Program-made: the position numbers and the translations under genes
Part shown: in pieces, positions 24,951-44,760 of the stretch
Layout of the letters: the number at the start of each line of letters is the position of its first letter
Numbering within the stretch: position 1 is the first letter of the stretch
The notes under the pieces: model-generated
What the model was told of the DNA's origin: nothing
What the model saw: the letters and a program-made list of their open reading frames with translations, nothing else
Database searches by the model: none
NCBI RefSeq assembly: GCF_014236795.1
Contig: NZ_CP049017.1
Coordinates: forward strand, 1,094,001-1,158,000
Source of the DNA: Xanthomonas theicola
GTDB lineage: Bacteria; Pseudomonadota; Gammaproteobacteria; Xanthomonadales; Xanthomonadaceae
DNA length: 64,000 nt
Reading direction: 5' to 3'

Positions 24951-24956
24951 CCGGCC

Positions 24957-27598: not shown

Positions 27599-27649
27599 GG
27601 CCTGGCCTCCATTGTAACTTATAAATCACAGGCATCAAGGTGGCCACCT

Positions 27650-29439: not shown

Positions 29440-30132
29440 TTGCGCGCCCAGTGGAAGATTCTTTGCGATTTCGACGGTACCGTGTCGCTGCAGGACGTGA
29501 CCGATACCTTGCTTGAACGGCTTGGCCGGCCCGGCTGGCGTGCGCTGGAAGACGACTGGGTGGCCGGGCGCATCGGCGCGCGTGCCTGCATGCACGGGCA
29601 GGTGGCGCTGCTCGACGACGACGTGGACGCATTGCATCGCGTGCTCGACGAGGTTCGCATCGATCCCGCGTTCGTGCGCTTCGTTGATCTGGCGCGCGAT
29701 CTGGGCATGCCGCTGAGCATCGTCAGCGATGGGCTGGACTATCCGATCGCGCGGATCCTGGGGCGGCATGGCCTGCCGCAGTTGCCGATCATCGCCAATC
29801 GGCTGCTGCGCACGCCCGAGGGGCAATGGCGCATGGCCTCGCCGCATGCCCAGCCGGACTGTCCCAGCGGCACCTGCAAGTGCGCGGTCATGGCCCAGCA
29901 CGGGTCTGCGCGATCCACCCTGCTGATCGGCGACGGCCGTTCCGATTTCTGCCTGGCCGGCCGTGCCGACCTGGTGTTCGCCAAGGACGGCCTGCTGCGC
30001 CACTGCCGCGCCAACGGCATCGCGCATCGCGCGATCGGCGATTTCGAAGACGCCATCGCCTTGCTGCACGCACTCGCCGCGCCAGTCGCGGCGGCCACGC
30101 GCGTGCCACTTCCCATTGCCCAACGAGCCTGA
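29440..30132 (+). CDS. HAD-IB family phosphatase (MtnX-like)
   Basis: The protein is 230 residues and starts at a TTG (LRAQWKILCDFDGT) with GGAGAG six bases before it; no in-frame ATG fits. The HAD motif I is CDFDGTVS with nucleophile D10 and acid D12. Motif II lies in LSIVSDGLD and motif IV in LIGDGRSDFCLA. The family includes MtnX, which dephosphorylates a methionine-salvage intermediate, and phosphoserine phosphatases, but no other salvage gene is nearby. It ends five bases before an aminotransferase gene, so the two probably act in one pathway. The substrate is unknown. Confidence 0.82.
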   Translation: MRAQWKILCDFDGTVSLQDVTDTLLERLGRPGWRALEDDWVAGRIGARACMHGQVALLDDDVDALHRVLDEVRIDPAFVRFVDLARDLGMPLSIVSDGLDYPIARILGRHGLPQLPIIANRLLRTPEGQWRMASPHAQPDCPSGTCKCAVMAQHGSARSTLLIGDGRSDFCLAGRADLVFAKDGLLRHCRANGIAHRAIGDFEDAIALLHALAAPVAAATRVPLPIAQRA

Positions 30133-30137
30133 CTCCC

Positions 30138-31628
30138 ATGAACCGGAATGTTCCGCTTTCCACGGCGTTCGCGCCGCTCCACGACGATCTCGACGCCGCC
30201 GCGCACGCCAGCCTGCAGCCGGCGGCGCCCGACCCGGGCGCGGCCTACTCGCGTGCGCTGAGCGATGCGCAGCTGCTGGCCGAGGAGGCCGAATACTGTT
30301 CGTTCGGCGACACCGTGCACTACAGCGAACCGCCGCGGATCTTCGCGCACTGCGACGGCAGCTACCTGTACGACACCGAGCAGGTGCCGTATCTGGATTT
30401 GCAGATGTGGTATTCGGCGGTCAACTTCGGCTATGCCAATCCGCGTCTGAACGGGGCGTTGAAGCGGCAGATCGACAGCCTGCCGCAGGTGGCCAGCCAG
30501 TACCTGCATCCGACCAAGATCGAACTGGCCAAGACCATCGCCCAGGACGCGCAACGCAAGTGGGGGCGCAAGGGCCGGGTGCATTTCAACGTCGGCGGCG
30601 CGCAGTCGGTGGAGGATTCGCTGAAGCTGGTGCGTAACGCCAGCGCCGGCAAGAGCCTGGTGTTCGCGTTCGAGGGCGGCTACCACGGCCGCACCCTGGG
30701 CGCCTCGGCGATCACCTCCTCGTACCGCTACCGGCGCCGCTTCGGCCATTTCGACCGCGCCCAGTTCATCGAATTCCCGTATCACTTCCGCGGCCCCAAG
30801 GGCATCTCCAAGGAGGAATACGGCGAGCAATGCGTGGCCAGGTTCGCACGCCTGTTCGAGACCGAGTACAACGGCGTGTGGGACCCCAAGGCCGGGCAGT
30901 GCGAGTACGCGGCGTTCTACGTCGAGCCGATCCAGGGCACCGGCGGCTACGTGATCCCGCCGCCGAACTTCTTCACCGGGCTGAAGAAGGTGCTGGACCA
31001 GTACGGCATCCTGCTGGTGGTGGACGAGATCCAGATGGGCTTCTTCCGCACCGGCAAGCTGTGGGCGATCGAGCATTTCGGGGTGACGCCGGACGTGCTG
31101 GTGTTCGGCAAGGCGCTGACCAACGGCCTCAACCCGCTGGCCGGGATCTGGGCGCGCGAGGAGCTGATCAACCCGACCGTGTTCCCGCCGGGTTCGACCC
31201 ATTCCACCTTCGCCTCCAATCCGCTCGGCACCGCGGTGGGGCTGGAGACGATGCGCATGCTGGCCGAGGCCGACTACGAAACGATGGTCATGGCCAAGGG
31301 GGCGCACTTCCTCGACGGCCTGCGCGCCCTGCAAAAGCGCCATCCGGAAATCGGCGACGTCGACGGCCTGGGTCTGGCGCTGCGCGCGGAGATCTGCCAG
31401 GCGGACGGCTTCACTCCGAACCGCAAGCTGCTCGACACGATGGTGGACATGGGCCTGGAAGGCGAGCTGCGCCACAACGGCAAGCGCATCGGCCTGGTGC
31501 TGGACGTGGGCGGCTACTACAAGAACGTGATCACGTTGGCGCCGTCGCTGCACATCAGCCACGAGGAGATCGATCTGGCGCTGTCGCTGCTGGACCAGTT
31601 GCTGACCCGCGCCAAGCGGGTGGCATGA
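30138..31628 (+). CDS. Class III PLP-dependent aminotransferase
   Basis: The protein is 496 residues, in the size range of the omega-aminotransferase family. It has VGGAQSVEDSLKLVRNA (phosphate binding), FEGGYHGRTLGASAIT, EPIQGTGGY, LVVDEIQMGFFRTGK (the D that contacts the pyridine N), and the Schiff-base lysine in VFGKALTNGLNPLAG. A 60-residue N-terminal extension precedes the fold. Such enzymes move amino groups to or from omega-amines, diamines or ketone/aldehyde substrates. It is coupled to the HAD phosphatase upstream and faces the ketosynthase gene. Confidence 0.9.
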   Translation: MNRNVPLSTAFAPLHDDLDAAAHASLQPAAPDPGAAYSRALSDAQLLAEEAEYCSFGDTVHYSEPPRIFAHCDGSYLYDTEQVPYLDLQMWYSAVNFGYANPRLNGALKRQIDSLPQVASQYLHPTKIELAKTIAQDAQRKWGRKGRVHFNVGGAQSVEDSLKLVRNASAGKSLVFAFEGGYHGRTLGASAITSSYRYRRRFGHFDRAQFIEFPYHFRGPKGISKEEYGEQCVARFARLFETEYNGVWDPKAGQCEYAAFYVEPIQGTGGYVIPPPNFFTGLKKVLDQYGILLVVDEIQMGFFRTGKLWAIEHFGVTPDVLVFGKALTNGLNPLAGIWAREELINPTVFPPGSTHSTFASNPLGTAVGLETMRMLAEADYETMVMAKGAHFLDGLRALQKRHPEIGDVDGLGLALRAEICQADGFTPNRKLLDTMVDMGLEGELRHNGKRIGLVLDVGGYYKNVITLAPSLHISHEEIDLALSLLDQLLTRAKRVA

Positions 31629-31689
31629 GATGACGGGGGACAGCGCGTCGGCGCCGCGTTGCCTCCCGTCGTCCGCGGCGGCGGAGGCT

Positions 31690-32925
31690 TCAGCGCGGCG
31701 CGCGCAGCGCGAGCACCGCGTTGAGGCCGCCGAACGCGAAGGAATTGCTCAGCACCGCGCGGACCGGCCGCGCGCGGGCCTGGCCCGGGACGTAGTCCAG
31801 GTCGCAGTCCGGGTCCGGGTCGAGGAAGTTGGCGGTCGGCGGCACCAACTGCTCGCGCAGCGCGCCGATCGCGGCCACCAGTTCCAGCGCGCCGGCGGCG
31901 CCGAGCGCGTGGCCGTGCACGGCCTTGGTCGAACTCACCGCCAGCGCGTCGGCATGGCCGCCGAACACCTGGCGCAGCGCCTGCGTCTCGCAGCGGTCGT
32001 TGGCCTGGGTGCCGGTGCCGTGGGCGTTGACGTAGTCGATCTGCTGCGGCTCCAGGCCGGCATCGTGCAGGGCCAGGCGCATCGCCGCGGCGGCGCCGTC
32101 GACGCTGGGCGCGACGATGTCGTGCGCATCGGCGCCCAGGCCGACGCCGGCCAGTTCGGCCAGCGGCACCGCGCCGCGCGCGGCGGCATGCGCGGCGCTT
32201 TCGAGCACGAACACGCCGGCGCCTTCGCCCAGCACCAGGCCGCTGCGCTGCGCGCAGAACGGCCGGCAGGTGTCGTCGCTGACCACGCGCATCGCTTCCC
32301 AGGCGCGGATCAGCGACAGGCTCAGACAGGCCTCGCTGCCGCCGCTGAGGGCGACGTCGGCCAGGCCATGGCGGATCAGCAGCGCCGCCTGCGCCAGCGC
32401 GTGGTTGGCCGAGGCACACGCGCTGGAGACGGCGAAGGCCGGGCCGCGCAGGCCGAAGGCGATGCTGATCTGGCTGACCGGGGCGTTGTTCATGCTGCGC
32501 ACGATGGTCAGCGGGTGCAGGCGCTCGGCCTGCTCGCGGTACAGCCGCCGCGACTGTTCGTCGCGGCTGAGTTCGGCGCCGACGCCGGTGCCGAGCACCA
32601 CCGCGCCGCGTGCGGCGCCTGCGCCGCGCAGGTCCAGTCCGGATTGAGCCACGGCCTCGTAGGCCGCGACCAGCGCCATCTGGGTCATGCGGTCGAGCTG
32701 GCCGGGCGCGATGCCGCCCAGCTGCGCCGCCTGCGGCGCGAAGCCCGGCACCGCGGCGGCCAGGCGCATCTTCAGCGTGGCCTGCGGATCGGGCGAGGCC
32801 AGCGCGGCGATGCCGCTACGGCCCTCGCACATGCCGCGCCACAGGGCATCGGCACCCAGGCCGAGCGCGCTGACCGCGCCCATCCCGGTGACGACGACGC
32901 GATGTCCCTGCGCCGAGCGGTCCAT
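31690..32925 (-). CDS. Stand-alone beta-ketoacyl-ACP synthase (FabF-like)
   Basis: The protein is 411 residues, of the FabF/KAS II type. It has an intact condensing triad: C170 in VSSACASANHAL, H302 in NAHGTGTQAND, and H339 in STKAVHGHALGAAG. It condenses acyl and malonyl groups on ACP. It is separate from any fab cluster and is followed upstream on its operon by its own ACP, six bases away. No ketoreductase or dehydratase lies nearby, so it may perform one dedicated condensation rather than full chain building. Confidence 0.9.
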   Translation of the reverse strand: MDRSAQGHRVVVTGMGAVSALGLGADALWRGMCEGRSGIAALASPDPQATLKMRLAAAVPGFAPQAAQLGGIAPGQLDRMTQMALVAAYEAVAQSGLDLRGAGAARGAVVLGTGVGAELSRDEQSRRLYREQAERLHPLTIVRSMNNAPVSQISIAFGLRGPAFAVSSACASANHALAQAALLIRHGLADVALSGGSEACLSLSLIRAWEAMRVVSDDTCRPFCAQRSGLVLGEGAGVFVLESAAHAAARGAVPLAELAGVGLGADAHDIVAPSVDGAAAAMRLALHDAGLEPQQIDYVNAHGTGTQANDRCETQALRQVFGGHADALAVSSTKAVHGHALGAAGALELVAAIGALREQLVPPTANFLDPDPDCDLDYVPGQARARPVRAVLSNSFAFGGLNAVLALRAPR

Positions 32926-32931
32926 GGCGGC

Positions 32932-33207
32932 TCAGTGCGCCGCGGCCAGCGGAGCGGCGGCGGCCTTGGCGGCCAGCGCCTGTTGCACCGCTTCGGTCAG
33001 CTTGCCCAGCGAGCCGTCGTCCAGGTTCGGATCGCGCTGCGGGAAGGTGATGTCGAAGTGCTCCTCGATGTCGAACAGGATTTCGATCGCCTCGAGCGAA
33101 TCCAGGCCCAGGTCCTGCAGTTTGGTGTCCGGGGTCAGGCCGGCGGGATCGATCTCGCCGTGCTTGGCGACGATGCTGTGGATCTGTGTCTCGATAGACG
33201 GGGTCAT
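32932..33207 (-). CDS. Dedicated acyl carrier protein
   Basis: The protein is 91 residues, with the phosphopantetheine site S37 in LGLDSLEAIEILFDIEEHF. The acidic helix II expected of ACPs is present. An Ala-rich tail of about 15 residues extends past the usual fold. It is the first gene of the ACP-ketosynthase pair and starts 114 bases from the divergent transferase gene, so the shared gap is a bidirectional promoter region. Confidence 0.93.
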   Translation of the reverse strand: MTPSIETQIHSIVAKHGEIDPAGLTPDTKLQDLGLDSLEAIEILFDIEEHFDITFPQRDPNLDDGSLGKLTEAVQQALAAKAAAAPLAAAH

Positions 33208-33320
33208 GGCAGTCCTCCGCGAAATGAAAGGCCACCGTGCGGCGAATGCCGCCGGTGGAAGGCATGCCGCGGCCCAAGGCTGCGGCGTCCATCCTCCACG
33301 CTAGCCGGCCAATCTTGCAG

Positions 33321-34391
33321 ATGCCTTTCGTAGGCCAACTCGAACCGCAGGCGTTGCAGCAGCAGTTCCTCGCGCACCCGCCGCAGGCCTTCCAGGCGCG
33401 TCCCCTGGAGCACGGCGTGCCGGCGTTCGAGGCCGAGTTCGACCTGCTGACCACCGCCGACCCCGCGCTGCGCGCGCGCAGCGCCCGCTGGCCGCTGCAG
33501 TGGCTGTGGCGGCGCCTGCTGCGCCCGCGCACCAGCTTCGTCGGCAGCACCGTCAGCGAATACGCCTGGCTGCCGCGCGCGGCCGATCCGGCGCGATTGC
33601 CCGGGCAATGGCGGGTGCAGCTGGGGCGCAAGCGTCCGCTGCTGATCGTCAAGGACATCCCGCAGCACTCGCCGCTGCTCGACGCCAGCGACAACGTCTG
33701 GGCGCGCGCGTTCCTCGAAGCGTGCGAACGCAGCGGCTACGTGGTACTGCGCGGGCAGGCGCTGGCCTGGGTGCCGATCGATTTCGGCTCCGTCGACGAG
33801 TACCTGGCGCGGCTGTCGCGCGCCCGGCGCCGCAACATCCGCCGCAAGCTGCGCTCGCGCGCCGACCTGGAGATCGAGGTGCTGCCGACCGGCGCCGCCT
33901 TCGCCGACCCGGCGCTGCGCGCGCACTGCTATGCGCTGTACCTGCAGGTGTACGCGCAGAGCGAGGTGCATTTCGATCTGTTGACCGCGGCGTTCTTCGA
34001 TGCGCTGCTGACCGATGCCGATTGCGGTGGCCTGGTGTTCACCTATCGTCATCAGGGCCGGCTGATCGGCTGGAACCTGTGCTACGTGCACGACGGGCGG
34101 CTGCTGGACAAGTACATCGGCCTGCACTATCCGGATGCGCGCGTGCACAACCTGTACGCGCTGAGCTGGATGCACAACCTGGACTACGCCTGCCGCCATG
34201 GCCTGCGCGCCTACGTCGCCGGCTGGACCGACCCGGAAGTGAAAGCGCAGCTCGGCGCCAGCTTCACCTACACCTGGCATGCGGTGTACCTGCGCAATCC
34301 GTTGCTGCGCATCGCGCTGCGGCGGTTGCGGCCGCTGTTCGAGGCCGACCAGGTCGGTGCCGCCGCGACCGATGCCGACGTGGCGCAATGA
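33321..34391 (+). CDS. FemAB/GNAT-like acyl or aminoacyl transferase
   Basis: The protein is about 356 residues from ATG 33321; in-frame ATGs at 33237-33264 would crowd the divergent ACP promoter and are less likely. It resembles GNAT-fold FemAB-like proteins: SRARRRNIRRKLRSRADLEIEV, then GGLVFTYRHQGRLIGWNLCYVHD and LYALSWMHNLDYACRHGLRAY. Such proteins transfer acyl or aminoacyl groups to amines. Beside an ACP and a ketosynthase, it could offload an acyl chain onto an amine; this is inference. Overlap with the next gene by four bases shows coupling. Confidence 0.68.
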   Translation: MPFVGQLEPQALQQQFLAHPPQAFQARPLEHGVPAFEAEFDLLTTADPALRARSARWPLQWLWRRLLRPRTSFVGSTVSEYAWLPRAADPARLPGQWRVQLGRKRPLLIVKDIPQHSPLLDASDNVWARAFLEACERSGYVVLRGQALAWVPIDFGSVDEYLARLSRARRRNIRRKLRSRADLEIEVLPTGAAFADPALRAHCYALYLQVYAQSEVHFDLLTAAFFDALLTDADCGGLVFTYRHQGRLIGWNLCYVHDGRLLDKYIGLHYPDARVHNLYALSWMHNLDYACRHGLRAYVAGWTDPEVKAQLGASFTYTWHAVYLRNPLLRIALRRLRPLFEADQVGAAATDADVAQ

Positions 34392-35275
34392 AGACCAATG
34401 CGCCCGTCGTGCTGGACCTGGACGCCTCGCTCGGCATCCTGCCGGGCGCGCTGCGCCTGCCGCTGCAGGACTGGCGCGACGGCTTGCGCTTCGCCTGTTC
34501 GCTGCGCCGGCTGCGGCGCTTCGGCGCCGCGCTCGACGCCTTGCTGCCGGCCCGGCACGGCAGCGTGCTGCTGGGCAGCGGCGATTTCCACCATCTGAGC
34601 CTGCCGCTGATCGCGCGCGTGGCGCAACGCGCGCCCGGGCCGCTGCGGGTGGTGGTGTTCGACAACCATCCGGACAACATGCGGTTCCCGTTCGCGGTGC
34701 ACTGTGGTTCGTGGGTGTGGCGGGTGGCGGCGCTGCCGCAGGTGGCGCGGGTGGAGGTGGTCGGCATCACCTCGGGCGACGTGGGCGCCGCGCATGCCTG
34801 GGAAAACCACCTGCGGCCGCTGTACCGCGGCAAGCTGCGCTACTGGTGCAGCGGCGTGGACGTCGGCTGGGCGCGGCGCCTGGGGCTGGGCCAGGCGGTG
34901 CGCGGCTTCGCCTCGAGCATGGAGATGATCGACGCCTTCCTGCAGCACCTGCGGCGCACGCCGATGCCGACCTATCTGTCGCTGGACAAGGACGTGCTGG
35001 ATCCGGACGAGGTGCGCACCAACTGGGACCAGGGCGAATTGCGGGTGCCGCACCTGCTCACCGCCATCGCCTACCTGCACGGGCAACTGCTCGGCAGCGA
35101 CATCACCGGCGAGGTGTCGCAGGTGCAGTATCCTCAGTGGTGGAAGCGGCGCCTGGCGGCATTGGATGCGCAGCCGCCGCCGTCGCCGCAATCGCTGATG
35201 GAATGGCAGGCGCGGCAGCACGCGGTGAACCTACGGCTGTTGCAGGCGCTGGCCGAGGCTGGGCTGCGGCGATAG
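34388..35275 (+). CDS. Arginase/agmatinase-fold protein
   Basis: The protein is 295 residues. Metal-site motifs of the ureohydrolase family are visible: GSGDFHH (replacing GGDHS), FDNHPDN (DxHxD) and SLDKDVLDPDE (SxDxDxxDP). Most manganese ligands are therefore kept, though the first motif is altered. Members cleave guanidino groups or, in divergent branches, formimino or amide bonds. It is coupled to the transferase upstream. A REP pair follows it. The true substrate is unknown. Confidence 0.8.
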   Translation: MKTNAPVVLDLDASLGILPGALRLPLQDWRDGLRFACSLRRLRRFGAALDALLPARHGSVLLGSGDFHHLSLPLIARVAQRAPGPLRVVVFDNHPDNMRFPFAVHCGSWVWRVAALPQVARVEVVGITSGDVGAAHAWENHLRPLYRGKLRYWCSGVDVGWARRLGLGQAVRGFASSMEMIDAFLQHLRRTPMPTYLSLDKDVLDPDEVRTNWDQGELRVPHLLTAIAYLHGQLLGSDITGEVSQVQYPQWWKRRLAALDAQPPPSPQSLMEWQARQHAVNLRLLQALAEAGLRR

Positions 35276-35310
35276 CGCTGTCTCAACCTGGCTCTTTGCA
35301 GTCGTCCAGA

Positions 35311-35532: not shown

Positions 35533-35587
35533 ATTCCGCTGGCTGCAGATATCCGGACCGAGGCGGGCCAGCGCGAGCGTTGCGCTG

Positions 35588-36793
35588 TCAGTCCGCACCG
35601 TCGGCACACACCTGCTGCAGCACCGCCAGGATCGCCTCGAAACCTTTCTCGTGCAGCCACGGGCTGTTGCTGATGCTCAGGCAGCGCGCGGCGAAGTCGC
35701 GCGCGTTGGGCATCGGCGCGGCCTCGACGATGCCGCGCAGGTAGGCGTAGTCGGGCAGGGCGTGCACGAACAGCAGGCCGACGCCGAGCCCGCGTGGCCA
35801 CAGCCGCGCCAGCGCGCGCTCGCGCGCGGCGGCATCCGGCAGCAGCACCAGCAGTGCCGGCCAGCTGCCCTGCGCGCCGGCGCTGTCGGCGATCACCCGC
35901 AGCCCTGCGATCGCGGCCAGGCGCGCGCTGCGGCGCCGGCCCTGTTCGCGCAACTGCGCCAGGAACGCCGGCCAGCGTGCGGCGGCACGCACCCCGACCG
36001 CTTCGCGCCAGGCACCGACCGCATGCTGCGGGATCGCCGCGTCGAACTGGTCGCCGACCGCACCCACGCGGTCGCCGCGGCGCAGCGCGCGGCGCAGCGG
36101 TGCGCCGTAGGCCCAGCGCAGCGCGTGCGGCCGGTACAAGGCGGCGTAGCCGAGCAACTGCACGCTGCGGCGCAGTTCCCAGCGCCAGTCGGGCTGGCCC
36201 AGGCGCGCCGCGGTGTCGATCAGGCTGTCCCGCAGCGGCGCATGCCGCGACAGCAGCAGGCCGCCTTCGTACAGGGTCGGGCCCTTGCCCACGGCCAGGC
36301 TGCAGAAGCCGATGTCGCCGCCGAGGCCGGCGGCGCTGCCATCGGCATGCACGCCGCCCAGCGCTTGCGCCGCGTCCTCGATCAGCACCGCGCCGCAGGC
36401 CGCGGCGGCGTCGCGCAACGGCGCCAGGTCGGTCAGGCGTCCGCCCAGGTGGGTGGCGACGATCGCCAGGGTGTCGTTGCCGCAGCGGTGCGCCAGTTGG
36501 GCGGGGTCGGGTTCGATCGAACCGGGCAGCAGATCGCACAGTACCAGCTGCAAACCGCAGTGGGCCACCGCCAGCGCCACCAGCGGGCAGGTGTAGGCGG
36601 CCACCAGCACCTGCCGGCGGCGGCTGCCGGCGGCCAGGGTGCGCAGTGCGACCACCAGCGCCGCCGTGCCCGAGCAGGTCAGCAGCGCGTCGGGCAGGCC
36701 GAGCTGCGCCGCCAGGCGCCGCCCGTCACGCGGCGGCCACAGGTCGCGCCACTGCAGCGGCAACCCGGCAGTGGGCGGAATCTCAGTGCGCAT
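35588..36793 (-). CDS. DegT/DnrJ/EryC1-family aminotransferase
   Basis: The protein is 401 residues. The PLP lysine is in LAVGKGPTLYEGG, which matches the K-x5-EGG pattern of sugar aminotransferases. LLTCSGTAALVVAL forms the phosphate-binding start and IEDAAQALGG carries the D that contacts the cofactor. Known members aminate keto-sugars such as UDP-4-keto-pentose (ArnB) or make other amino products. It is the last gene of the operon with two EamA halves and an esterase, overlapping the gene before it by 11 bases. Confidence 0.85.
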   Translation of the reverse strand: MRTEIPPTAGLPLQWRDLWPPRDGRRLAAQLGLPDALLTCSGTAALVVALRTLAAGSRRRQVLVAAYTCPLVALAVAHCGLQLVLCDLLPGSIEPDPAQLAHRCGNDTLAIVATHLGGRLTDLAPLRDAAAACGAVLIEDAAQALGGVHADGSAAGLGGDIGFCSLAVGKGPTLYEGGLLLSRHAPLRDSLIDTAARLGQPDWRWELRRSVQLLGYAALYRPHALRWAYGAPLRRALRRGDRVGAVGDQFDAAIPQHAVGAWREAVGVRAAARWPAFLAQLREQGRRRSARLAAIAGLRVIADSAGAQGSWPALLVLLPDAAARERALARLWPRGLGVGLLFVHALPDYAYLRGIVEAAPMPNARDFAARCLSISNSPWLHEKGFEAILAVLQQVCADGAD

Positions 36794-37181: not shown

Positions 37182-37543
37182 GTGCCGAGCCCGACCACGG
37201 CCACGCCGGCGCTGACCAGGCAGATCCCGGCCACCTGCATGCGCCCCAGCCGCTCGCCGAACAGCCAGTGCCCGGCGAGCATGATCGCCACGATGTTGAT
37301 CGAGCCGAGCAGCACGCCGCGGCCCAGCGGCACCAGCGACAGGAACGCGGTCCAGGCGAGGAATTCGAACGCGTAGCAGGCCATGCCCAGCCACAGCCAC
37401 GGCTGCCGCGCCATGCGCCGCCAGCGCGCCGCGCCGGCCGCCAGCGGGTCGCTGGCGACGTGCTTGAAGGCCAGTTGGCCGACCGTGTCCAGCGCCACCG
37501 TCGCCAGCCACACGCCGACCACTGACGCCTGCGGCGACATCAT
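37178..37543 (-). CDS. Half-size EamA/SMR membrane protein (ArnE-like)
   Basis: The protein is 121 residues (120 if the second ATG is used) with four helices. LATVALDTVGQLAFKHVA parallels DTLAQFGFK of its neighbour, and LLGSINIVAIMLAGHWLFGERL parallels the third helix region. Two unlike but related halves side by side are the hallmark of heterodimeric SMR transporters. Start and stop overlap both neighbours by four bases, so expression is tightly matched. Confidence 0.75.
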   Translation of the reverse strand: MMSPQASVVGVWLATVALDTVGQLAFKHVASDPLAAGAARWRRMARQPWLWLGMACYAFEFLAWTAFLSLVPLGRGVLLGSINIVAIMLAGHWLFGERLGRMQVAGICLVSAGVAVVGLGT

Positions 37544-38364
37544 GCGGCCTGGCGCGGCGCGGCTTGCGCGGCGAAGAACTGCGCCAGCCGCGCGCCGAGC
37601 ACGCGGCGTTCGCGGTCCAGGGTGATCATGTGGTAGCTGTCGTGCAGCAGCAGCAATTCCACCGCTCCGGACACGCCGGCCATCACCAGTTGCGCATTGC
37701 GCAGATGCGCGATGTCGTCCTCGGCGGCATGCGCGACCAGGCACGGCGCGGTCACCTTGGCCAGGTTGCGGCGCACCCGGCGCGACAGCAGATGCATCTC
37801 GGCCAGCGCGTGCCACGGATTGCCGGGCAGGCCGGCGGCGCTGCTGTCGCCGCCGAGCATCGCGCCGCTGATCTGGGCGCGGATGCGCTCGTCGCGCAGG
37901 CCATACGGCGGCGCTTCCATGAACATGCGGCGGCGGCCGATGCCCAGGCGCTTGAACCACGGCAGCAGGAACGTCAGCCGCGCGCGCCGCGGAATGTTCC
38001 AGCCGTCGTAGCGGAAGGTGGCGCCGAGCACGCCGACGCCATCGACCCACTGCGGCCGCTCTTCGGCCAATTGCAGCGCCAGCAGCGCGCCCATCGACAG
38101 GCCGGCCACGAATAGTTTGTCCACCTGCGGGCGCATCCGCGCCGCCGCCTGCTCGACGCTGGCGGACCAGTCGCGCCAGCCGGTGGCGAGCAGGTCGTCC
38201 TCGTTGCCGCAGTGTCCGGCCAGTTGTACGCCGTGCACGCTGAAGCCCTCGCGGTGCAGGCATTTGCCGAGCAGGCGCATTTCGCTGGGGGTGCCGGTCA
38301 GGCCGTGGATCAGCAGCACGCCGTGGCGGCCGCCCTGGAAGTGGAATTCGGCGGATTGGATCAT
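37540..38364 (-). CDS. Carboxylesterase-like alpha/beta hydrolase
   Basis: The protein is 274 residues and resembles the Est30/carboxylesterase group. LLIHGLTGTPSEMR forms the oxyanion loop. S90 in AGLSMGALLA is the nucleophile. AAEDDIA supplies the acid and DSYHMIT the histidine. No signal peptide is seen, so it is cytoplasmic. It opens the esterase-EamA-EamA-DegT operon. It could release a product from ACP, remove a protecting acyl group, or hydrolyse a lipid. Which of these applies cannot be told. Confidence 0.85.
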   Translation of the reverse strand: MIQSAEFHFQGGRHGVLLIHGLTGTPSEMRLLGKCLHREGFSVHGVQLAGHCGNEDDLLATGWRDWSASVEQAAARMRPQVDKLFVAGLSMGALLALQLAEERPQWVDGVGVLGATFRYDGWNIPRRARLTFLLPWFKRLGIGRRRMFMEAPPYGLRDERIRAQISGAMLGGDSSAAGLPGNPWHALAEMHLLSRRVRRNLAKVTAPCLVAHAAEDDIAHLRNAQLVMAGVSGAVELLLLHDSYHMITLDRERRVLGARLAQFFAAQAAPRQAA

Positions 38365-38435
38365 CGGTGCGGGCGCGATTTCGCGATCTGGGCAATGCGC
38401 GCAGCGTGGCCGCTGCGCGTTTCAGCAGCCTTTCG

Positions 38436-39329
38436 TCAGCGCGGCGCGGTGCGCAAGCGCACCAGCACGCGCTGGCCCAGACGCAGCGCCGAGGGCTGCT
38501 GGAACGCGAGCACACAGGCCACGCTGCGGTCGTTGCCGGCGCTGTCGGCGGCATCGTGCAATTGCGCCGGACCGAACGCCGGCGCCAGCCAGCGCACCAC
38601 CGCCGTCCCCAGCACGGTCTGCCGGCCGTCGTCGCTGATCACGTCGGCCAGCATGCCGGGTGCGACCGCGGCGGCGTAGCGCTCGTCGAGTTCGGCGCGG
38701 ACCAGGCGCGGCGCGTCGGGCAGCAGGGTCAGCAGCGGCGTGGCGCCGCCATCGCTGCGCGCGCCCGGCGCCGCGGCCAGTTGCAGCACGCGCCCGTCGA
38801 CCGGCGCGTACAGCCGATATTGGTCGCGCTGCAGTTCGGCCTGCCGCACCTGCGCGACGGCCAGCGTGGCGTCGCTGCGCGCGGTCTGCAGGGCGTCGTC
38901 CAGGGTCTGGCTGGCGTCGCCGGCATCGTCGGCGCTCTGTCCGTCGCCGGCGCCGATGCGTGCCGCCTCGGCCAGCCGCCGCTGGCGCTGCCGCGCGTGC
39001 GCCAGCCGTTGCTGCAGTTGCGTCACCCGCGCCGCGGCGGCCTGCGCGCGGGTCCGCGCGATGTCCAGTTCCAGTGCCGCGGCGCGGTCGTCGGCTTCGA
39101 TCAGCAACGCACCGCGGCGGACCGCGTCGCCCTCGTGCACCGCCACCTGGCGCAGCGCCGCGGCGACCGGCAGGCTCAGCCGCAGCAGGCCGCCTTCCAC
39201 GTCGATGCGGCCGCGCGCCACGGCCAGGTACGCGGCCGGTGCCGGGTCGGGCGCGGCCACGGGCGCGGGCGGTTGCGTGCACGCCGCCAGCAGCAGGCTC
39301 AGCACAGGAGCGGAAACGAACGCTTTCAT
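38436..39329 (-). CDS. HlyD/MacA-type periplasmic adaptor lipoprotein
   Basis: The protein is 297 residues. The signal peptide ends in LLLAAC, a lipobox, so it should be anchored in the inner membrane. The barrel/lipoyl part reads VAVHEGDAVRRGALLIEADD. A coiled hairpin (about 90-150, Gln/Ala/Arg-rich) and the returning lipoyl half YRLYAPVDGRVLQLAA follow. It couples the ABC transporter to the outer-membrane channel. Its start overlaps the ATPase gene by four bases. Confidence 0.87.
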   Translation of the reverse strand: MKAFVSAPVLSLLLAACTQPPAPVAAPDPAPAAYLAVARGRIDVEGGLLRLSLPVAAALRQVAVHEGDAVRRGALLIEADDRAAALELDIARTRAQAAAARVTQLQQRLAHARQRQRRLAEAARIGAGDGQSADDAGDASQTLDDALQTARSDATLAVAQVRQAELQRDQYRLYAPVDGRVLQLAAAPGARSDGGATPLLTLLPDAPRLVRAELDERYAAAVAPGMLADVISDDGRQTVLGTAVVRWLAPAFGPAQLHDAADSAGNDRSVACVLAFQQPSALRLGQRVLVRLRTAPR

Positions 39330-40087
39330 GGTACGGACTTCCGGGGCAGGGACGAGGGCGGCGGCGCCAGGCGGCGGTCGTCGAGAATGCGGCCGTCCTC
39401 CATCGACAGCACGCGGTCGGCATGGCGGATCAGGCGCGGGTCGTGGCTGACGCACAGCACCATGGTGCCGTGCGCGCGCGCGATGCGGTGCAGCAGGTCG
39501 ATCACGATCTGGCCGTTGCCGGCGTCCAGCGCGCTGGTCGGCTCGTCGGCGAACAGCAGCGCGGGGTGCTTGGCCAGCGCGCGCGCGATCGCCACGCGCT
39601 GCTTCTCGCCTCCGGAAAGTTCGGCCGGGCGCAGCTGCTGGCGCTGGGCGATGCCGACCTCGGCCAGCGCCGCTTCGGCGCGCGCGCGCACCTCGGCGGC
39701 GGCCAGGCCCATGTATTGCAGCGGCAGCCGCACCTGGTCCAGCGCGCACAGCGCCGGGAACAGGTTGAAGCCCTGGAAGATGAAGCCGGTATGGCGCAGG
39801 CGGAAGCGCTCCAGCGCCGCCGCGTCGAGCGCGCCCAGGTCCTCGCCCAGCGCCTGCACCCGGCCGGCATCGGCGCGTTGCAGGCCGCTGAGGATCGACA
39901 GCAGCGTGCTCTTGCCGCAGCCCGACGGCCCCGAGATCAGGGTCAGCTCGCCCGGCCATACCTGCAGTGTCAGCTCGCGCAGCACCGGCGTGCGCAGCTT
40001 GCCGGACACGAAGCTCTTGCACAGGCCGCTGCCGTGCAGGGTCGCGCCCGTCGCCCACGGCGCGGCGGGGGGGGCGGCCCGGTTCAT
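39326..40087 (-). CDS. ABC transporter ATP-binding protein (MacB/LolD type)
   Basis: The protein is 253 residues. Walker A is SGPSGCGKSTLLS, the signature is LSGGEKQRVAIARAL, Walker B is LLFADEPTSALD and the switch is CVSHDP. The D-loop and Q-loop region FIFQGFNLFPAL fit the MacB/LolD/FtsE group that works with FtsX-like permeases. It is cotranscribed with the permease and adaptor, so the complex probably works as a tripartite exporter. Confidence 0.93.
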   Translation of the reverse strand: MNRAAPPAAPWATGATLHGSGLCKSFVSGKLRTPVLRELTLQVWPGELTLISGPSGCGKSTLLSILSGLQRADAGRVQALGEDLGALDAAALERFRLRHTGFIFQGFNLFPALCALDQVRLPLQYMGLAAAEVRARAEAALAEVGIAQRQQLRPAELSGGEKQRVAIARALAKHPALLFADEPTSALDAGNGQIVIDLLHRIARAHGTMVLCVSHDPRLIRHADRVLSMEDGRILDDRRLAPPPSSLPRKSVP

Positions 40088-41217
40088 CGCAGCAGCAGCG
40101 CCGGATCGGCGCGGCGCAGTCCGCGCAGCGCGGCCAGCGCCGACAGCAGGGTCAGCAGCATCACCGCGACCACGCACAGCGCCCAGCCGCTGCCGTCGAA
40201 GGCCACCGGCACGTCGTGTGCGCGGGCAAGCGCCACCAGTGCGGCGCCGAGCGCGCTGGCGCCGAACAGGCCGAGCGCGCCGACCCAGGCCGCCTGCTCC
40301 AGCACCACCCAGCGCAGCGCGCGCATGCTCACGCCCAGCGCATTGAGCGTGGCGTATTCGCGCGCGGCGCCGAGCACCGTGGCCAGCAGGGTCTGGCTGG
40401 TGATCGCCACGCCGACCAGCAGCACGATGCCGCCGAGGAACAGCACGCCGGCGCCGGCGCCGGTGTCGAACATCCAGAACAGGATGCTGCGCCGGGCGAA
40501 GTCCGCCGCGCTCCACGCCGCGATGCGCGCCGGCACGGCGGCGCCAGGGATGCCGCGGGCCACGGCCTCGGCGTCGGCACCGGGCCGCAGCCGCGCGACC
40601 AGGTAGGTCGGCCAGTCCGGGTGCGCCTCGTCGGTGTTCAGGGCGCGCGTGGTCTCCAGCGAGGCCAGCACGTTGACGCCGCCCAGCGCGCGCAGGCCGC
40701 GGCCGACCCCGACCACCCGCACCCGGTGGCCGTTGATGCGCGCGCTGCGGCCGATGCGCACGCCGAGCTTGTCCAGTTCGGCGCGATCCACCACCACCGT
40801 GTCCGGTTCGCGCAGCGCCGCGCGCAGGGCCGGGCTCAGCAGCCTGGCGAACATCAGGCCGTCGGCGCGGGTGTCGATGCCGGAGACGTAGATCGACACC
40901 GCGCCGTTGGCGCCGGGACCGCGCCAGTCGCCGTCGAACCACACGAACGGCTCGACCTGCAGCACCTGCGGATCCAGGTACAGCGACGCCGCGGCATCGG
41001 GGTCGATCGGACGGCCCTGGTCCACGCTCTGCGTGCCCGGATAGCCGAGCCACAGGTCGGCGGCCGAGCCGGACACGTAGACGCTGGCACTGCCGAAGAT
41101 GCCCAGCACCAGCGCGGTCTGCAGCAGCAGCAACAGGCTGGCGAAACCGACCGAGACGACCACCGGCAGGAAGCGGCGCCATTCGTGGCGCAGGGTCTGG
41201 CGGGCCAGCGCGACCAT
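40084..41217 (-). CDS. FtsX/MacB-type ABC permease
   Basis: The protein is 377 residues. A first helix lies at about 18-40, a large periplasmic domain at about 45-240, and three helices at the end (about 255-280, 305-330 and 345-365). This is the MacB-type topology without a fused ATPase. The ATPase is the next gene, overlapping by four bases. MacB-like pumps drive substrates already in the periplasm through a TolC channel, so the product may be flipped across the inner membrane first, perhaps by the EamA pair. Confidence 0.88.
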   Translation of the reverse strand: MVALARQTLRHEWRRFLPVVVSVGFASLLLLLQTALVLGIFGSASVYVSGSAADLWLGYPGTQSVDQGRPIDPDAAASLYLDPQVLQVEPFVWFDGDWRGPGANGAVSIYVSGIDTRADGLMFARLLSPALRAALREPDTVVVDRAELDKLGVRIGRSARINGHRVRVVGVGRGLRALGGVNVLASLETTRALNTDEAHPDWPTYLVARLRPGADAEAVARGIPGAAVPARIAAWSAADFARRSILFWMFDTGAGAGVLFLGGIVLLVGVAITSQTLLATVLGAAREYATLNALGVSMRALRWVVLEQAAWVGALGLFGASALGAALVALARAHDVPVAFDGSGWALCVVAVMLLTLLSALAALRGLRRADPALLLR

Positions 41218-42644
41218 CAGGGCGTCGCGCCCGCGGCGCCCGCATCGGTGCCGGCGCCGCGTGGCGCCGCGCTGCCCAGCGCGGTCTGTAGCACGATGTA
41301 GTCCAGGTCGCGTTGGCGCTGCGCATCCAGCAGCTCCAGCGCGGCCTGGTCGCGCGCGGCCCGCTGCGTGGCGACCTCCAGATCGTTGCCCAGACCAAGC
41401 CGCCGCCGCGCCTGCGCCGCGTCGGCGGCCTGTTGCAACGCCTGCACCGCCTGCTGCTGCGCCAGTTCGCGTCGGCGCTGCTGTTCCAGCGTGGTCAGCG
41501 CGTTTTGCACTTCGGCCACCGCCTCCAGCACGCACTGGCGGTAGGCCAGCGTCGCCGCCTCCAGCAGGTCGCCGCGCGCCAGCGCCTGCGCTTGGCGTTG
41601 GCCCCAGTCGAACAGCGGGATGTCGATCAACGGCCCCAGCGAGGCGATGCCGTGTGGGGAGGTGCGGCGGTGCGAGATCAGGTTGCTGGACCAGTGGATC
41701 GCGCCACCCAGGCCGATGCTGGGATAGCGGTCGGCGCGGGCGATGCCCAGTTCGCCGGCCGCGCTCAGCACCTCGGCCTCGCGCGCGGCGATGTCCGGGC
41801 GCCGCCGCAGCAGGTCGGCGGGCACCGCGTCGATCGCGCCGATCTGCAGTCCGAGCTGCGCTGCGCCGCTGTTGGCCGTGGGCGCCACGGCCCAGGCCGG
41901 ATCCGGTGCGTTGCGGGCCAGCAGCACCGCCAGCCGCTGCGCTGCGTCGGCGCCGGCGCTGCGTGGTTGGTTCAGCGCGGTCTGTGCCTGCCGCTGCGCG
42001 GCGTGCGCCTGCGCCGCGGTGGCCGGCGCGGCCAGGCGCAGGCGGACCAGGGCCTGGCTCAGCGTCGCCTGCTGCTGCCGGGCCTGCACGATGCGCTGCA
42101 GGACCTGCTCGGCCCGCTGCGCATGGCGCAGTTCGATCCAGTTGCGCGCCACCTCGGCCACGGTGGCGGCGCGCACCTGCTCCAGGCGCGCCTGCGCCGC
42201 CTGCAGGTCGCCGCGGGCCAGGCGGCGACTGGCCTCGCCGCGCCCGAACAGGGGCAGTTCCCATTCCGCGTCGAAGCCGGCGACCAGGAACGAGGCGCTG
42301 GCGTCGGGGTCGATCGGATCTTCGGTGCGTGCATGCAGCTGCGGCCTCAACGTGGCGTCGGCGACGCCGTCCATGCGCCGCGCCGCGCGCAGCCTGGCCA
42401 GCGCCTGGGCGACATCGAGGTCCTCGCGCAGCGCCTGCGCGACCAGCGCATCCAGTTGCGGATCGTGGAAGTCCTGCCACCAGGCGCTGCCGGCCGGCCG
42501 CGGCGCCGCCGCGGCCGGCAGCGCGGTCCACTGAGGCGGCAGCGGCTGCGCCAGGTCGGGCAGCGGCGTGCTGACGCAGCCGGCCAGCGCCACGGCGCTC
42601 AGCCCTGCAAGGCCGGCCAGCCGGAGTGCGCGGCGCCGGCTCAT
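41217..42644 (-). CDS. TolC/NodT-family outer-membrane efflux lipoprotein
   Basis: The protein is 475 residues. The signal peptide with lipobox VALAGC places it in the outer membrane. Repeated helical halves show LDALVAQALREDLDVAQAL and GQRQAQALARGDLLEAATLAY, with SIGLGGAIHWSS in the beta region. Such channels pair with an adaptor and a pump. It sits between the sensor kinase and the permease genes, with one-base and four-base overlaps. Confidence 0.9.
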   Translation of the reverse strand: MSRRRALRLAGLAGLSAVALAGCVSTPLPDLAQPLPPQWTALPAAAAPRPAGSAWWQDFHDPQLDALVAQALREDLDVAQALARLRAARRMDGVADATLRPQLHARTEDPIDPDASASFLVAGFDAEWELPLFGRGEASRRLARGDLQAAQARLEQVRAATVAEVARNWIELRHAQRAEQVLQRIVQARQQQATLSQALVRLRLAAPATAAQAHAAQRQAQTALNQPRSAGADAAQRLAVLLARNAPDPAWAVAPTANSGAAQLGLQIGAIDAVPADLLRRRPDIAAREAEVLSAAGELGIARADRYPSIGLGGAIHWSSNLISHRRTSPHGIASLGPLIDIPLFDWGQRQAQALARGDLLEAATLAYRQCVLEAVAEVQNALTTLEQQRRRELAQQQAVQALQQAADAAQARRRLGLGNDLEVATQRAARDQAALELLDAQRQRDLDYIVLQTALGSAAPRGAGTDAGAAGATP

Positions 42645-44068
42645 GCGGGCGGCGGCGCGTTGGCCGGCAGGTCCAGTTCCACGCGCAGGCCGCCCAGCGC
42701 CGAGCGCTGGTAGCGCAGGGCGGCGTGGTGGCGTGCGGCGATGCTGGCGACGATCGCCAGGCCCAGGCCGGTGCCGCCCACGGGCGCGTCCGGGGCGCGG
42801 AAGAAGCGCTCGCCCAGCCGCGGCAGCAAGGCCTCGTCCAGTCCCGGGCCGGCATCGTCGACCGTCAGCCGCTGGTGTCGCGGCTGCCGGCGCAGGCTCA
42901 CCGTGACCATGCTGCCGGCGGCATGCTTGAAGGCGTTGTCGAGCAGGTTGTCGAGCAGTTCGCGCAGCGACCAGGCGTCGGCGGCGATCCAGGCCGGGCC
43001 GTCGTCATCGTCGTCGTCGTAGCCGAGGTCGACCCCGGCCTGCAGCGCGTCGGGGATGCGCTCGGCCAGCACGTGCGGCAGCCACGCGGCCAGGTCCAGC
43101 GGCAGTAGCGGGCGAATGCTCTCGCTCGGCGCCTGCGCGCGGGTCAGCGCCAGCAACTGGGTGGAGCTGCGGATCGCGCGGTCGGTCAGCTGGCGGATGT
43201 GTTGCAGCGCCTGCGCGGTGTCCTGCGCACAGGTGCTGGCCTGGGCGCGCTGCACGTGCATGCTCAGCCCGGCCAGCGGCGTGCGCAGTTGGTGCGCGGC
43301 GTCGGCGACGAAGCGCTCCTGCAGCGCCATCAGCTGCTTGAGTCGGCCCAGCAGGCCGTCGATGGCCTGGGTCAGCGGCAGCACCTCGATCGGGATGTCC
43401 GCGCTGGACACCGGGCTGAGGTCGCGTTGGCTGTCGTCCAGGCGCCGCACCGCCGGTTCCAGCAGGCGCAGGCCCACCTGCACGCCATGCCAGACCAGCG
43501 CCAGCAGCGAACAGGTGAGCAGCAGCTCGGTCGGCAGCATCAGCATCAGGATCTCGCGCGCGCGGCGGCGGCGGTCGTCCAGGGTTTCGGCAACCGAGAT
43601 GGTCAACCGGTCGCCGGCCTCCTGGGCCGACGGCAGCAGCACGCTGGCCACGCGCACCGGGATGCGGGTTGCCATGCGCTCGTCGCGCAGGAACACCCTG
43701 CCAAGCTCGTCGGGCTCGGCGTGTGCGGGAATCGTCTGCGCGCTGCGGCTGATCACGCCGTGCTTGCGGCTGCGCACTTCGAAAAAGACGCGCCCTTCGT
43801 TGCTGTATTCGATCAGGCGCTGCGCCTGCAACGGCAGCGGTAGGCCGGGGCCGGTGGCGTTGACCGCCTTGGCCAGGCCTAGCGTATCTTCCTTCAGATC
43901 CATGTCGTGGACATGGTTGGAGTACTTGAGCATCAGCAGATAGAACAGTGCCGAAATGCTGATCATCAGCAGCAGGGTGGGGATCAGCAGGAACGCCAGT
44001 AGGCGTTGGCGCAGGCTGGGATGGGCGGTAGCCAACGCCGCCACTTCGACTGCCGGGGCGGCGCTCAC
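42641..44068 (-). CDS. Sensor histidine kinase
   Basis: The protein is 475 residues from a GTG at 44068 that overlaps the response-regulator stop. Helix 1 is at about 25-48 and helix 2 at about 180-200, enclosing a periplasmic sensor of about 130 residues. The phospho-histidine is in FVADAAHQLRTPLAGL near residue 260. The ATPase has LLDNLLDNAFKHA, DDAGPG and GGTGLGLAIV. An unusual run of six aspartates lies before the N box. It probably senses an envelope or product signal and controls the export operon. Confidence 0.92.
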   Translation of the reverse strand: MSAAPAVEVAALATAHPSLRQRLLAFLLIPTLLLMISISALFYLLMLKYSNHVHDMDLKEDTLGLAKAVNATGPGLPLPLQAQRLIEYSNEGRVFFEVRSRKHGVISRSAQTIPAHAEPDELGRVFLRDERMATRIPVRVASVLLPSAQEAGDRLTISVAETLDDRRRRAREILMLMLPTELLLTCSLLALVWHGVQVGLRLLEPAVRRLDDSQRDLSPVSSADIPIEVLPLTQAIDGLLGRLKQLMALQERFVADAAHQLRTPLAGLSMHVQRAQASTCAQDTAQALQHIRQLTDRAIRSSTQLLALTRAQAPSESIRPLLPLDLAAWLPHVLAERIPDALQAGVDLGYDDDDDDGPAWIAADAWSLRELLDNLLDNAFKHAAGSMVTVSLRRQPRHQRLTVDDAGPGLDEALLPRLGERFFRAPDAPVGGTGLGLAIVASIAARHHAALRYQRSALGGLRVELDLPANAPPPA

Positions 44069-44760
44069 GACGCGAGTTGGCCGGGTGCGTCGGCGCAGGT
44101 TTCCTCCAGTAGGTAGCCCAGCCCGCGGATGGTACGGATACCGACGCCGGAGTGCTCCAGCTTGCGGCGCAGGCGATGCATGGAGATGTCCAGGCCGTTG
44201 TCGGTGATCTCGTGCTGCCAGTCGCACAGGGACTCGGTCAGCTGGCTGCGGCTGACCACCCGTCCGCTGTTCAGCAGCAGGGTCTCCAGCAGCGCGAACT
44301 CGCGCGCGGTCAGATCCAGCGATTCATCCAGCTGCCATACCCGGCGCCCGGCCAGGTTGATCCGCAGTTGGCCCAGGGCCATCTCGGGGACGCCACCGCT
44401 GCTGCGCCGGCGCAGCAGGGCGCGAGTGCGGGCCAGGAACTCGGACAGTTCGAACGGCTTGATCAGGTAGTCGTCCGCGCCCTGATCGAGCGCGCGGATG
44501 CGGTCTTCCACCCGGTCGCGCGCGGTCACCACCAGTACCGCGATCTCGTCGCGCCGCTCCCGCAACCGCCGTATTATCTGCATGCCGTCACGTCGCGGCA
44601 GGCCAAGATCGAGTACCAGCAGGTGGTAGGATTCGCTGCTGAGCGCGAGCTCGGCGGCGACGCCGTCGCCGACCTGGTCCACGGCATGCCCGCACTCGCT
44701 GAGCGAGTCCCGCAGCGCAACGGCAATGGACTTATCGTCTTCGGCAACTAGGATTCGCAT
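44065..44760 (-). CDS. OmpR-family response regulator
   Basis: The protein is 231 residues. The receiver has D8-D9, phospho-site D51 (LLVLDLGLPRRDG), T in LVVTARD and K in YLIKPF. The winged helix includes LTAREFALLETLLLN and the recognition region ITDNGLDISMHRLRRKLE ending in IRTIRGLGYLL. It leads the operon that continues with the kinase, channel, permease, ATPase and adaptor, and so very likely regulates its own transcript. Confidence 0.95.
   Translation of the reverse strand: MRILVAEDDKSIAVALRDSLSECGHAVDQVGDGVAAELALSSESYHLLVLDLGLPRRDGMQIIRRLRERRDEIAVLVVTARDRVEDRIRALDQGADDYLIKPFELSEFLARTRALLRRRSSGGVPEMALGQLRINLAGRRVWQLDESLDLTAREFALLETLLLNSGRVVSRSQLTESLCDWQHEITDNGLDISMHRLRRKLEHSGVGIRTIRGLGYLLEETCADAPGQLAS

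Follow-up and report, generated by a model that had tools for sequence, protein, structure and literature searches.

A conserved 16-gene module of Xanthomonas theicola and scattered Proteobacteria with a proposed role in making and exporting an amine-containing lipid

What is made by a locus that combines a ketosynthase and its own acyl carrier protein with two different pyridoxal phosphate (PLP) enzymes, a phosphatase, an acyltransferase, an arginase-like protein and a complete exporter, and do these genes belong together at all? The locus occupies positions 29440..44760 of a 64,000-nucleotide stretch of Xanthomonas theicola DNA (contig NZ_CP049017.1, positions 1,094,001 to 1,158,000 of the forward strand), referred to as the window in the following. 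A first-pass annotation had described it as a single biosynthesis-and-export system for which no described counterpart was known. All 16 genes were confirmed, they form one functional set, and this set is a conserved module in scattered Proteobacteria. No description of the gene set was found in the open-access literature, with subscription papers and preprints outside the scope of the search, and the module is apparently undescribed. We see an even chance that the locus encodes a regulated pathway whose product, an amine-containing lipid, is built in the cytoplasm, flipped across the inner membrane and then exported.

The genes and the names used for them are listed below. Residue conservation was counted in aligned homologues of the fetched loci (see below) above identity thresholds, with homologues of lower identity left out. 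The identities of HK and RR rest on the annotation of their homologues in Xanthomonas sacchari, those of the other genes on Pfam and NCBIfam.

29440..30132, + strand: HAD, MtnX-like HAD-IB phosphatase with TTG start (Pfam/NCBIfam; five HAD-motif residues constant in 49/49)
30138..31628, + strand: AT3, class III PLP enzyme (Aminotran_3; PLP Lys kept, GabT R398 and E211 not kept)
31690..32925, - strand: KS, FabF-like ketosynthase (Pfam/NCBIfam; Cys-His-His constant in 56/56)
32932..33207, - strand: ACP, dedicated acyl carrier protein (PP-binding; phosphopantetheine Ser in 56/56)
33321..34391, + strand: FEM, FemAB_like/Acetyltransf_6, GNAT-fold acyltransferase (Pfam; same-strand neighbour of ARG in 80/80 loci)
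34388..35275, + strand: ARG, arginase-superfamily metallohydrolase (Pfam Arginase; metal-ligand residues constant in 80/80)
35588..36793, - strand: DegT, DegT/DnrJ/EryC1/StrS aminotransferase (Pfam/NCBIfam; PLP Lys in 66/66)
36783..37181, - strand: EamB, half-size EamA/SMR-type membrane protein, weakly ArnF-like (Pfam/NCBIfam)
37178..37543, - strand: EamA, half-size EamA/SMR-type membrane protein, weakly ArnE-like (Pfam/NCBIfam)
37540..38364, - strand: ABH, monoacylglycerol-lipase-like alpha/beta hydrolase (Hydrolase_4; Ser-Asp-His in 61/61)
38436..39329, - strand: ADP, periplasmic adaptor of HlyD/RND_mfp type (family search)
39326..40087, - strand: ATP, DevA/LolD-like ABC exporter ATPase (top NCBIfam match DevA, 218.4 bits, cut-off 295.8)
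40084..41217, - strand: PERM, DevC-like ABC exporter permease (DevC, 65.4 bits, cut-off 290.35, sole NCBIfam match at E <=1e-10)
41217..42644, - strand: TOLC, outer membrane factor of the NodT family (217.9 bits, cut-off 210.05)
42641..44068, - strand: HK, sensor histidine kinase with GTG start (X. sacchari homologue annotated as sensor kinase)
44065..44760, - strand: RR, response regulator (X. sacchari homologue annotated as response regulator)

Start and stop geometry divides the genes into four units, namely HAD-AT3 (+), ACP-KS (-), FEM-ARG (+) and a series of ten genes (-) in the order RR-HK-TOLC-PERM-ATP-ADP-ABH-EamA-EamB-DegT. Most neighbours in the ten-gene unit overlap by 4 bases, as do FEM and ARG. 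The DNA at 30000-38400 is 86% identical to that of X. sacchari across 95% of 8.4 kb, and Xanthomonas bonasiae (L032) carries the same gene set with protein identities of 81-96%. The X. sacchari copy, in which PERM and TOLC are each split into two frames in the record, has all 16 gene types, as do nine more stretches of the genus, HK or RR being cut by the stretch end in some of the ten. No Rfam model matched 20000-46000 at gathering scores.

The ARG alignment, run against genome contigs, yielded at least 542 confirmed relatives, of which the best 80 were fetched with 10 kb flanks. Some contigs end sooner, genes beyond the flanks and homologues below the identity thresholds are missed, close relatives are over-represented, and ARG is present in 80/80 by construction. 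FEM occurs in all 80 as well, followed by EamA and EamB (67 each), DegT (66), ABH (61), AT3 at >=60% identity (58), KS and ACP (56 each), HAD (49), PERM and TOLC (42 each), ADP (41), ATP (40), HK (27), and RR (24). FEM and ARG adjoin on the same strand, at most 277 bases apart, in every one of these loci. HAD adjoins AT3 in 39 of the 58 AT3 loci and is situated 3.9-6.5 kb away in 9 more.

Within the genus, ARG is present in 19 of 20 genomes, that of the window included, compared to 1 of 21 others of the family and order. For the only genome of the genus without ARG (G008), no AT3 was found at E 1e-100 and only background DNA matches to the region were obtained. In the phylum samples, scoring was restricted to the best 3 to 5 candidates of each genome, with limits of 1e-8 for ARG, 1e-100 for AT3, and 1e-25 for FEM. 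Among 398 evenly drawn Pseudomonadota genomes of 213 genera, which include the window's own genome and are related to one another so that the counts are non-independent, ARG was detected in 16 (9 genera), FEM in 18 (11 genera), and AT3 in 26 (13 genera). All 16 ARG genomes contain both AT3 and FEM, and both additional FEM genomes carry AT3. The co-occurrence that the first-pass annotation had proposed to look for is thus borne out, and its single system holds together in the genus, in the 80 loci, in the 398 genomes, and in the split loci of Dyella.

AT3 is missing from the FEM-ARG stretch in 23 genomes, namely those of 22 of the 80 loci and G276; it was located elsewhere in 20 of these, and HAD was found in 22. 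HAD adjoins AT3 in all 20. Ten of them are Dyella, and the rest are explained by flank edges (in L043 and L086 the contig continues and carries AT3 just beyond the fetched stretch), by short contigs, or by a distance of approximately 30 kb on the same contig (G440). In the ten Dyella genomes the HAD-AT3 pair is situated away from FEM-ARG, nine times on another contig of the draft, and in case of D. jiangningensis on the same chromosome at a distance of about 150 kb. In D. jiangningensis and D. tabacisoli the HAD-AT3 site also carries ADP, ATP, PERM, TOLC, HK, and RR. In two genomes with HAD and without AT3 (G447 and G457), the place beside HAD is taken by a class III enzyme that is only distantly related to AT3. 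It is 72-73% identical to the corresponding enzyme of Roseomonas, to which the ordinary HemL-like enzymes of the same two genomes are 43-45% identical. The substitute is similar to glutamate-1-semialdehyde aminomutase (GSAM), and AT3 is 24-25% identical to the GSAM-type enzymes. A GSAM-type enzyme is located beside HAD in Roseomonas, Aureimonas (74%), and Azospirillum (82%) as well. Neither AT3 nor HAD was found in the metagenome-assembled genome G443.

The composition of the locus differs between lineages, genera such as Delftia, Comamonas, Pigmentiphaga, and Snodgrassella being placed here in the Burkholderiales or Neisseriales. In Rhizobium and Phyllobacterium, a two-component system, HAD, AT3, ARG, EamA, a fatty acid desaturase, ABH, FEM, EamB, and a cyclopropane synthase are found together, and Agrobacterium has this set without desaturase and cyclopropane synthase and with TOLC, PERM, ATP, and ADP. 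The loci that we label Pseudomonas-like (L138, L139, and L141) contain ARG, EamA, EamB, HAD, AT3, ABH, FEM, HK, and RR. AT3-FEM-ARG of the Burkholderiales often faces DegT, EamB, EamA, ABH, HAD, and the exporter, and in Xylophilus and on a Bartonella plasmid this trio stands alone, with none of the other genes in the fetched stretch. In another genus of the same family as Xanthomonas (L142 and L143), two-component genes, ABH, EamA, EamB, DegT, HAD, AT3, FEM, and ARG are present, and no KS, ACP or exporter was found in the stretch. A distant family (L185, L188, and L189) has ACP and KS in series with HAD, AT3, and ABH. HAD, AT3, ABH, the EamA pair, the exporter, and two-component genes are also joined in L187 (genome G043) and L195 (genome G021), of which L195 includes KS and ACP and L187 does not. 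Beside the normal AT3 of a Rhodanobacter locus (L049), a second AT3-like frame with 55% identity is located at approximately 5700.

KS and ACP lie outside the fetched stretches of all 17 loci from Burkholderiales and Neisseriales genera, the search being confined to the stretches, and they are likewise not in the rhizobial and Pseudomonas-like stretches. Two further proteobacterial loci that do not belong to the 17 (L074 and L106) have no KS in the stretch. The first-pass annotation had placed a single KS condensation at the core of the pathway, which is not supported in view of these loci and of L142 and L143. KS and ACP are accessory, that is, functionally linked to the locus and dispensable at it, and they probably supply the acyl chain. 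The widest core consists of HAD, AT3, ABH, and the EamA pair, and FEM-ARG is its commonest addition. KS/ACP, desaturase/cyclopropane synthase, the exporter, and DegT are the variable parts.

Judging from their residues, the enzymes of the locus look functional. In addition to the constant positions given in the list, the Asp-x-Asp of HAD is intact, DegT keeps its Asp together with the Lys in 66/66, the PLP Lys of AT3 is conserved in 57/58 with one row gapped, the Asp of AT3 is conserved in 56/58 with two rows gapped, and eight Asp/His residues as well as D214 of ARG are invariant in 80/80. The Cys and both His residues of KS do not vary in any of the 56 loci, in agreement with the intact triad noted earlier for the window. 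Pfam detected no ketoreductase, dehydratase, chain length factor, adenylation or condensation domain in the ten biosynthetic proteins; a standard polyketide synthase or non-ribosomal peptide synthetase was thus rejected, as the first-pass annotation had expected.

AT3 is the most conserved gene, with a median identity of 78% to the window protein outside Xanthomonas (56 loci with >=60%), the exporter ATPase reaching 71% and FEM and ARG 58-59%. Its next-best match in its own genome has 31% identity, and no curated NCBIfam equivalog cut-off was reached among the matches listed. In an alignment with E. coli GabT, PatA, and HemL, all ten AT3 rows have Thr at the positions of both GabT R398 and E211, and Thr occurs at the R398 position in 57/58 AT3 homologues, one being gapped. 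Two rows of the GSAM-type substitute have Ser and Asn at these positions, like HemL. R398 and E211 mark 2-oxoglutarate-dependent class III transaminases, in which the Arg binds 2-oxoglutarate/glutamate. Due to the absence of both residues, AT3 is unlikely to be a standard glutamate/2-oxoglutarate transaminase, and due to the replacement of the 2-oxoglutarate-binding Arg its amino donor is uncertain. The earlier proposal of amination by the aminotransferases is too simple for AT3. The reaction of AT3 should be one that is shared with an aminomutase-like enzyme, the same reaction being expected for AT3 and its distant class III substitute. In a phage collection, 65 records contain AT3 relatives, all with less than 60% identity among the matches listed.

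ARG passes the Pfam Arginase model with 37.5 bits (cut-off 22) and reaches 22.3 of the 302 bits required by the agmatinase model. Its motifs GSGDxHH, DNHPD, and DKD align with the metal ligands of E. coli agmatinase SpeB, and Glu or Asp is found at the position of the Glu in DVVEVAP of SpeB, the guanidine-binding position. ARG has TNWDQG in place of the SpeB motif GTGTPVIGG, without variation among ten diverse members, and TNWEQG in Roseomonas. ARG is likely to be a metallohydrolase acting on a substrate other than agmatine. In a sequence search against the PDB, FEM had no match at E 1 or below, and ARG had none of significance, two weak ones being arginases. Among 14 control genomes, PF04339 also has a match in Caulobacter (protein not singled out).

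Of the product classes considered, a lipid is best supported. It is favoured by the DevA/DevC-like exporter, since DevA is the top match of the ATPase and DevC the only NCBIfam match of the permease, by the closest similarity of ABH to monoacylglycerol lipases, and by the desaturase and cyclopropane synthase that sit inside two rhizobial operons. KS/ACP in the Xanthomonadales and again beside HAD-AT3-ABH in the distant family argue in the same direction, as does the observation that acyl-chain enzymes vary by lineage, with AT3 and ABH, and in most cases HAD and FEM, being retained. Due to the fact that HAD adjoins either AT3 or its GSAM-type substitute, a phosphorylated amine intermediate appears plausible.

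By analogy to known systems we propose an N-acyl amino-alcohol lipid, which would arise by amination, N-acylation by FEM, and dephosphorylation. AT3 would aminate a small phosphorylated keto compound, with dihydroxyacetone phosphate as the simplest candidate, and FEM would attach a fatty acyl group to the amine, taken from ACP where KS/ACP tailors the chain. HAD would strip the phosphate before or after acylation. ARG and DegT may tailor the head group, with the ARG step as the weakest part of the model, and ABH may trim or transfer an ester-bound chain. The EamA pair would then flip the lipid, and the DevBCA-like ATPase, permease, and adaptor together with the outer membrane factor would carry it to the outer membrane or to the outside, production being turned on by the two-component system. 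Serinol in particular as the amine is a tentative and rather doubtful choice. It is equally tempting to speculate, at no better than a rather unlikely level, on a ceramide-like N-acyl amino-alcohol lipid that is built from an aminated triose phosphate without serine palmitoyltransferase and has its own flippase, exporter, and two-component control. If true, such a ceramide-like route would span Xanthomonadales, Burkholderiales, Neisseriales, Pseudomonas-like bacteria, rhizobia, Bartonella, and Acetobacteraceae. A dedicated system for an envelope or secreted lipid would add a new class of membrane or signalling lipids and would explain orphan genes that have been annotated piecemeal. The locus is carried by some soil bacteria, by some plant-associated ones, and by Snodgrassella of the bee gut, and was not detected in most of the sampled Proteobacteria.

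The transaminase Cj1437 of Campylobacter jejuni presumably belongs to another PLP class than AT3. The pathway of C. jejuni leads from dihydroxyacetone phosphate to serinol phosphate by Cj1437 (PMC11800397; PMC13276843), and it resembles the proposed one in the use of a PLP transaminase and a HAD phosphatase for an amino alcohol whose amine becomes part of an amide. The phosphatase Cj1435 is described there as working after amide bond formation, and the amide is formed to glucuronate in the capsule by an ATP-dependent ligase, in contrast to the proposed fatty amide formed by an acyltransferase (PMC11800397). Serinol from dihydroxyacetone phosphate, as suggested here, is also attributed to the dihydroxyacetone-phosphate aminotransferase RtxA of rhizobitoxine synthesis, which differs by a fused O-acetylhomoserine sulfhydrylase-like domain (PMC3222319). 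An amino-alcohol backbone is N-acylated in the cytoplasm and then moved to the envelope in the bacterial sphingolipid pathway (Spt, bCerS, and CerR; PMC11087976), similar to the order proposed for the locus. The locus differs from it, since neither a class II oxoamine synthase such as serine palmitoyltransferase nor a reductase is among the ten proteins scanned, to which the search was confined and in which Aminotran_3 and DegT are the only PLP enzymes. FEM may resemble bCerS. For export, the closest parallel is DevBCA with HgdD, which exports the heterocyst glycolipid of Anabaena (PMC8277102), and the locus likewise has an adaptor, a DevC-like permease, a DevA-like ATPase, and a TolC-type factor. 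It differs in scores below the curated cut-offs and in its proteobacterial hosts. The biosynthetic genes of the DevBCA-HgdD system are, we assume, different from those of the locus. A half-size EamA pair and a DegT-family enzyme are shared with ArnBCADTEF, but the scanned proteins of the window include no ArnA, ArnC or ArnT. Although it resembles a dedicated locus for the synthesis and export of a lipid, the locus does not show the tested features that define sphingolipid, polyketide/non-ribosomal peptide, Arn, and agmatinase systems.

Several observations weigh against the amine-lipid pathway, in which all substrates, the sequence of reactions, the transport direction, and the assignment of the product to the lipids are inferred. 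HAD lies outside the fetched stretch in 10 of the 58 AT3 loci (L069, L070, L071, L073, L074, L088, L089, L094, L106, and L110; the rest of these genomes was not searched for HAD), and for this reason our confidence was lowered from slightly better than even to even. In case of the Bartonella plasmid region, HAD is also missing from the fetched stretch, to which the search was confined. Stretches L187 and L195 lack FEM, ARG, and DegT, and at the limits used ARG and FEM are absent from the whole of genome G043 and ARG from that of G021. It follows that another acyltransferase serves there or that N-acylation is non-essential. Ten AT3-positive genomes of the 398 are without ARG. An AT3 homologue with 55% identity in L186 (9902-11287) has no recognised HAD or other partner nearby and could show the role of the enzyme outside the pathway. 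Neither the DevA nor the DevC cut-off is reached by the exporter. AT3 without the 2-oxoglutarate-binding Arg could be a lyase, mutase or racemase, and the arginase-type residues that are kept in ARG are poorly explained by a lipid scheme.

An unlikely alternative assigns a beta-amino-acyl product to the locus: KS or a housekeeping FabF would provide a 3-oxoacyl-ACP that is aminated on the carrier by AT3 or the GSAM-type enzyme, FEM would acylate the amine, and ABH would release the product. The GSAM-like nature of the AT3 substitute fits this route, since GSAM-like aminotransferase domains in iturin-type synthases act on beta-ketoacyl-ACP. KS and ACP look active and stand in series with HAD-AT3-ABH in the distant family, and the absence of a visible HAD near 10 of 58 AT3 genes also speaks for it. 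The route has, however, no role for HAD, yet HAD is beside AT3 in 39/58 loci, within 6.5 kb in 9 more, and beside the substitute in the cases observed, and KS/ACP are not seen in the 17 Burkholderiales/Neisseriales stretches. Quite unlikely is an acylated polyamine or guanidine metabolite, for which ARG would be a true ureohydrolase or an amide hydrolase acting on an arginine- or polyamine-derived amine handled by AT3 and FEM. The alignment with the SpeB metal ligands, the Glu/Asp at the guanidine-binding position, and the isolated AT3-FEM-ARG trio in the stretches of the Bartonella plasmid and Xylophilus agree with such a product, but not the exchange of GTGTPVIGG for TNWDQG or the low agmatinase score, and HAD, ABH, and the acyl-chain enzymes are left unexplained.

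Even less probable is an Arn-like modification of an envelope sugar, in which an amino sugar formed by DegT would be flipped on its polyprenyl carrier by the EamA pair and passed to lipid A or another acceptor by a GT-C enzyme. The EamA proteins match ArnE/ArnF and DegT matches sugar aminotransferases, some loci contain GT-C glycosyltransferases (PMT_2 in L041 and GT87 in L109), and an undecaprenyl-diphosphate phosphatase is located next door in Roseomonas. The ArnE/ArnF scores are, however, far below the cut-off (28 of 92 and 30.3 of 99 bits), no glycosyltransferase was found in the scanned proteins of the window, the rhizobial and Pseudomonas-like stretches have no DegT, and AT3, FEM, ARG, the desaturase, and the cyclopropane synthase remain without explanation. 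A chance neighbourhood of unrelated genes, as might be suggested by the different gene orders among lineages and by the split set of Dyella, is hardly credible and was rejected: ARG is nearly constant in the genus, co-occurrence across lineages persists through splitting and shuffling, and HAD stays beside the AT3 replacement.

Several neighbours of the loci were set aside as lineage-specific, namely a DNA topoisomerase subunit in Dyella, a cyanophycin-synthetase-like protein in Pigmentiphaga, and MipA in Azospirillum. The cyanophycin-synthetase-like protein is encoded between ARG and DegT (L069, 10821-13775) and belongs to a family of 984-aa open reading frames (ORFs) common to Pigmentiphaga and related loci (L069, L071, L073, L089, and L094). 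A MipA/OmpV-family gene is situated beside the cluster in a Pseudomonas-like locus (L138, 12460-13587, assigned by eye), in Phyllobacterium (L030, 15663-16463, annotated), and in Azospirillum (L031, 8599-9507, Pfam). On the Bartonella plasmid, the genes that come after AT3-FEM-ARG, on the opposite strand, encode an AlgX-like SGNH protein and an MBOAT acyltransferase (L026, 12885-15407). Recurring ORFs without assignment were observed across the loci, many of which look antisense.

Upstream of the locus in the window, a low-GC island (57-64% versus approximately 70%) extends over 22000-29100. Its ORFs were named from their translations and presumably encode an IS30-like transposase (25939-26940), a tyrosine-integrase-like protein, and a HigB/HigA-like pair (27275-27598 and 26922-27359). 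Between the integrase-like ORF (27650-29086) and HAD, the 3' end of a tRNA-Leu gene is present at 29191-29218 (28 bases, single copy in the genome). ARAGORN found no intact tRNA at this position, and in X. sacchari HAD is preceded by an intact tRNA-Leu(UAA) (L013, 14157-14243). The fragment appears to be left over from the attachment site of an element that has integrated here. Between the convergent genes ARG and DegT, a repeat with TGTGGGAGCGACTTCAGTCGCGAC-like inverted ends is located at 35313-35546, to which genome G008 has many short scattered matches. A second full-length PF04339 protein (435 bits) is encoded in the window's own genome far from the locus (G000:C1:1510645-1511736).

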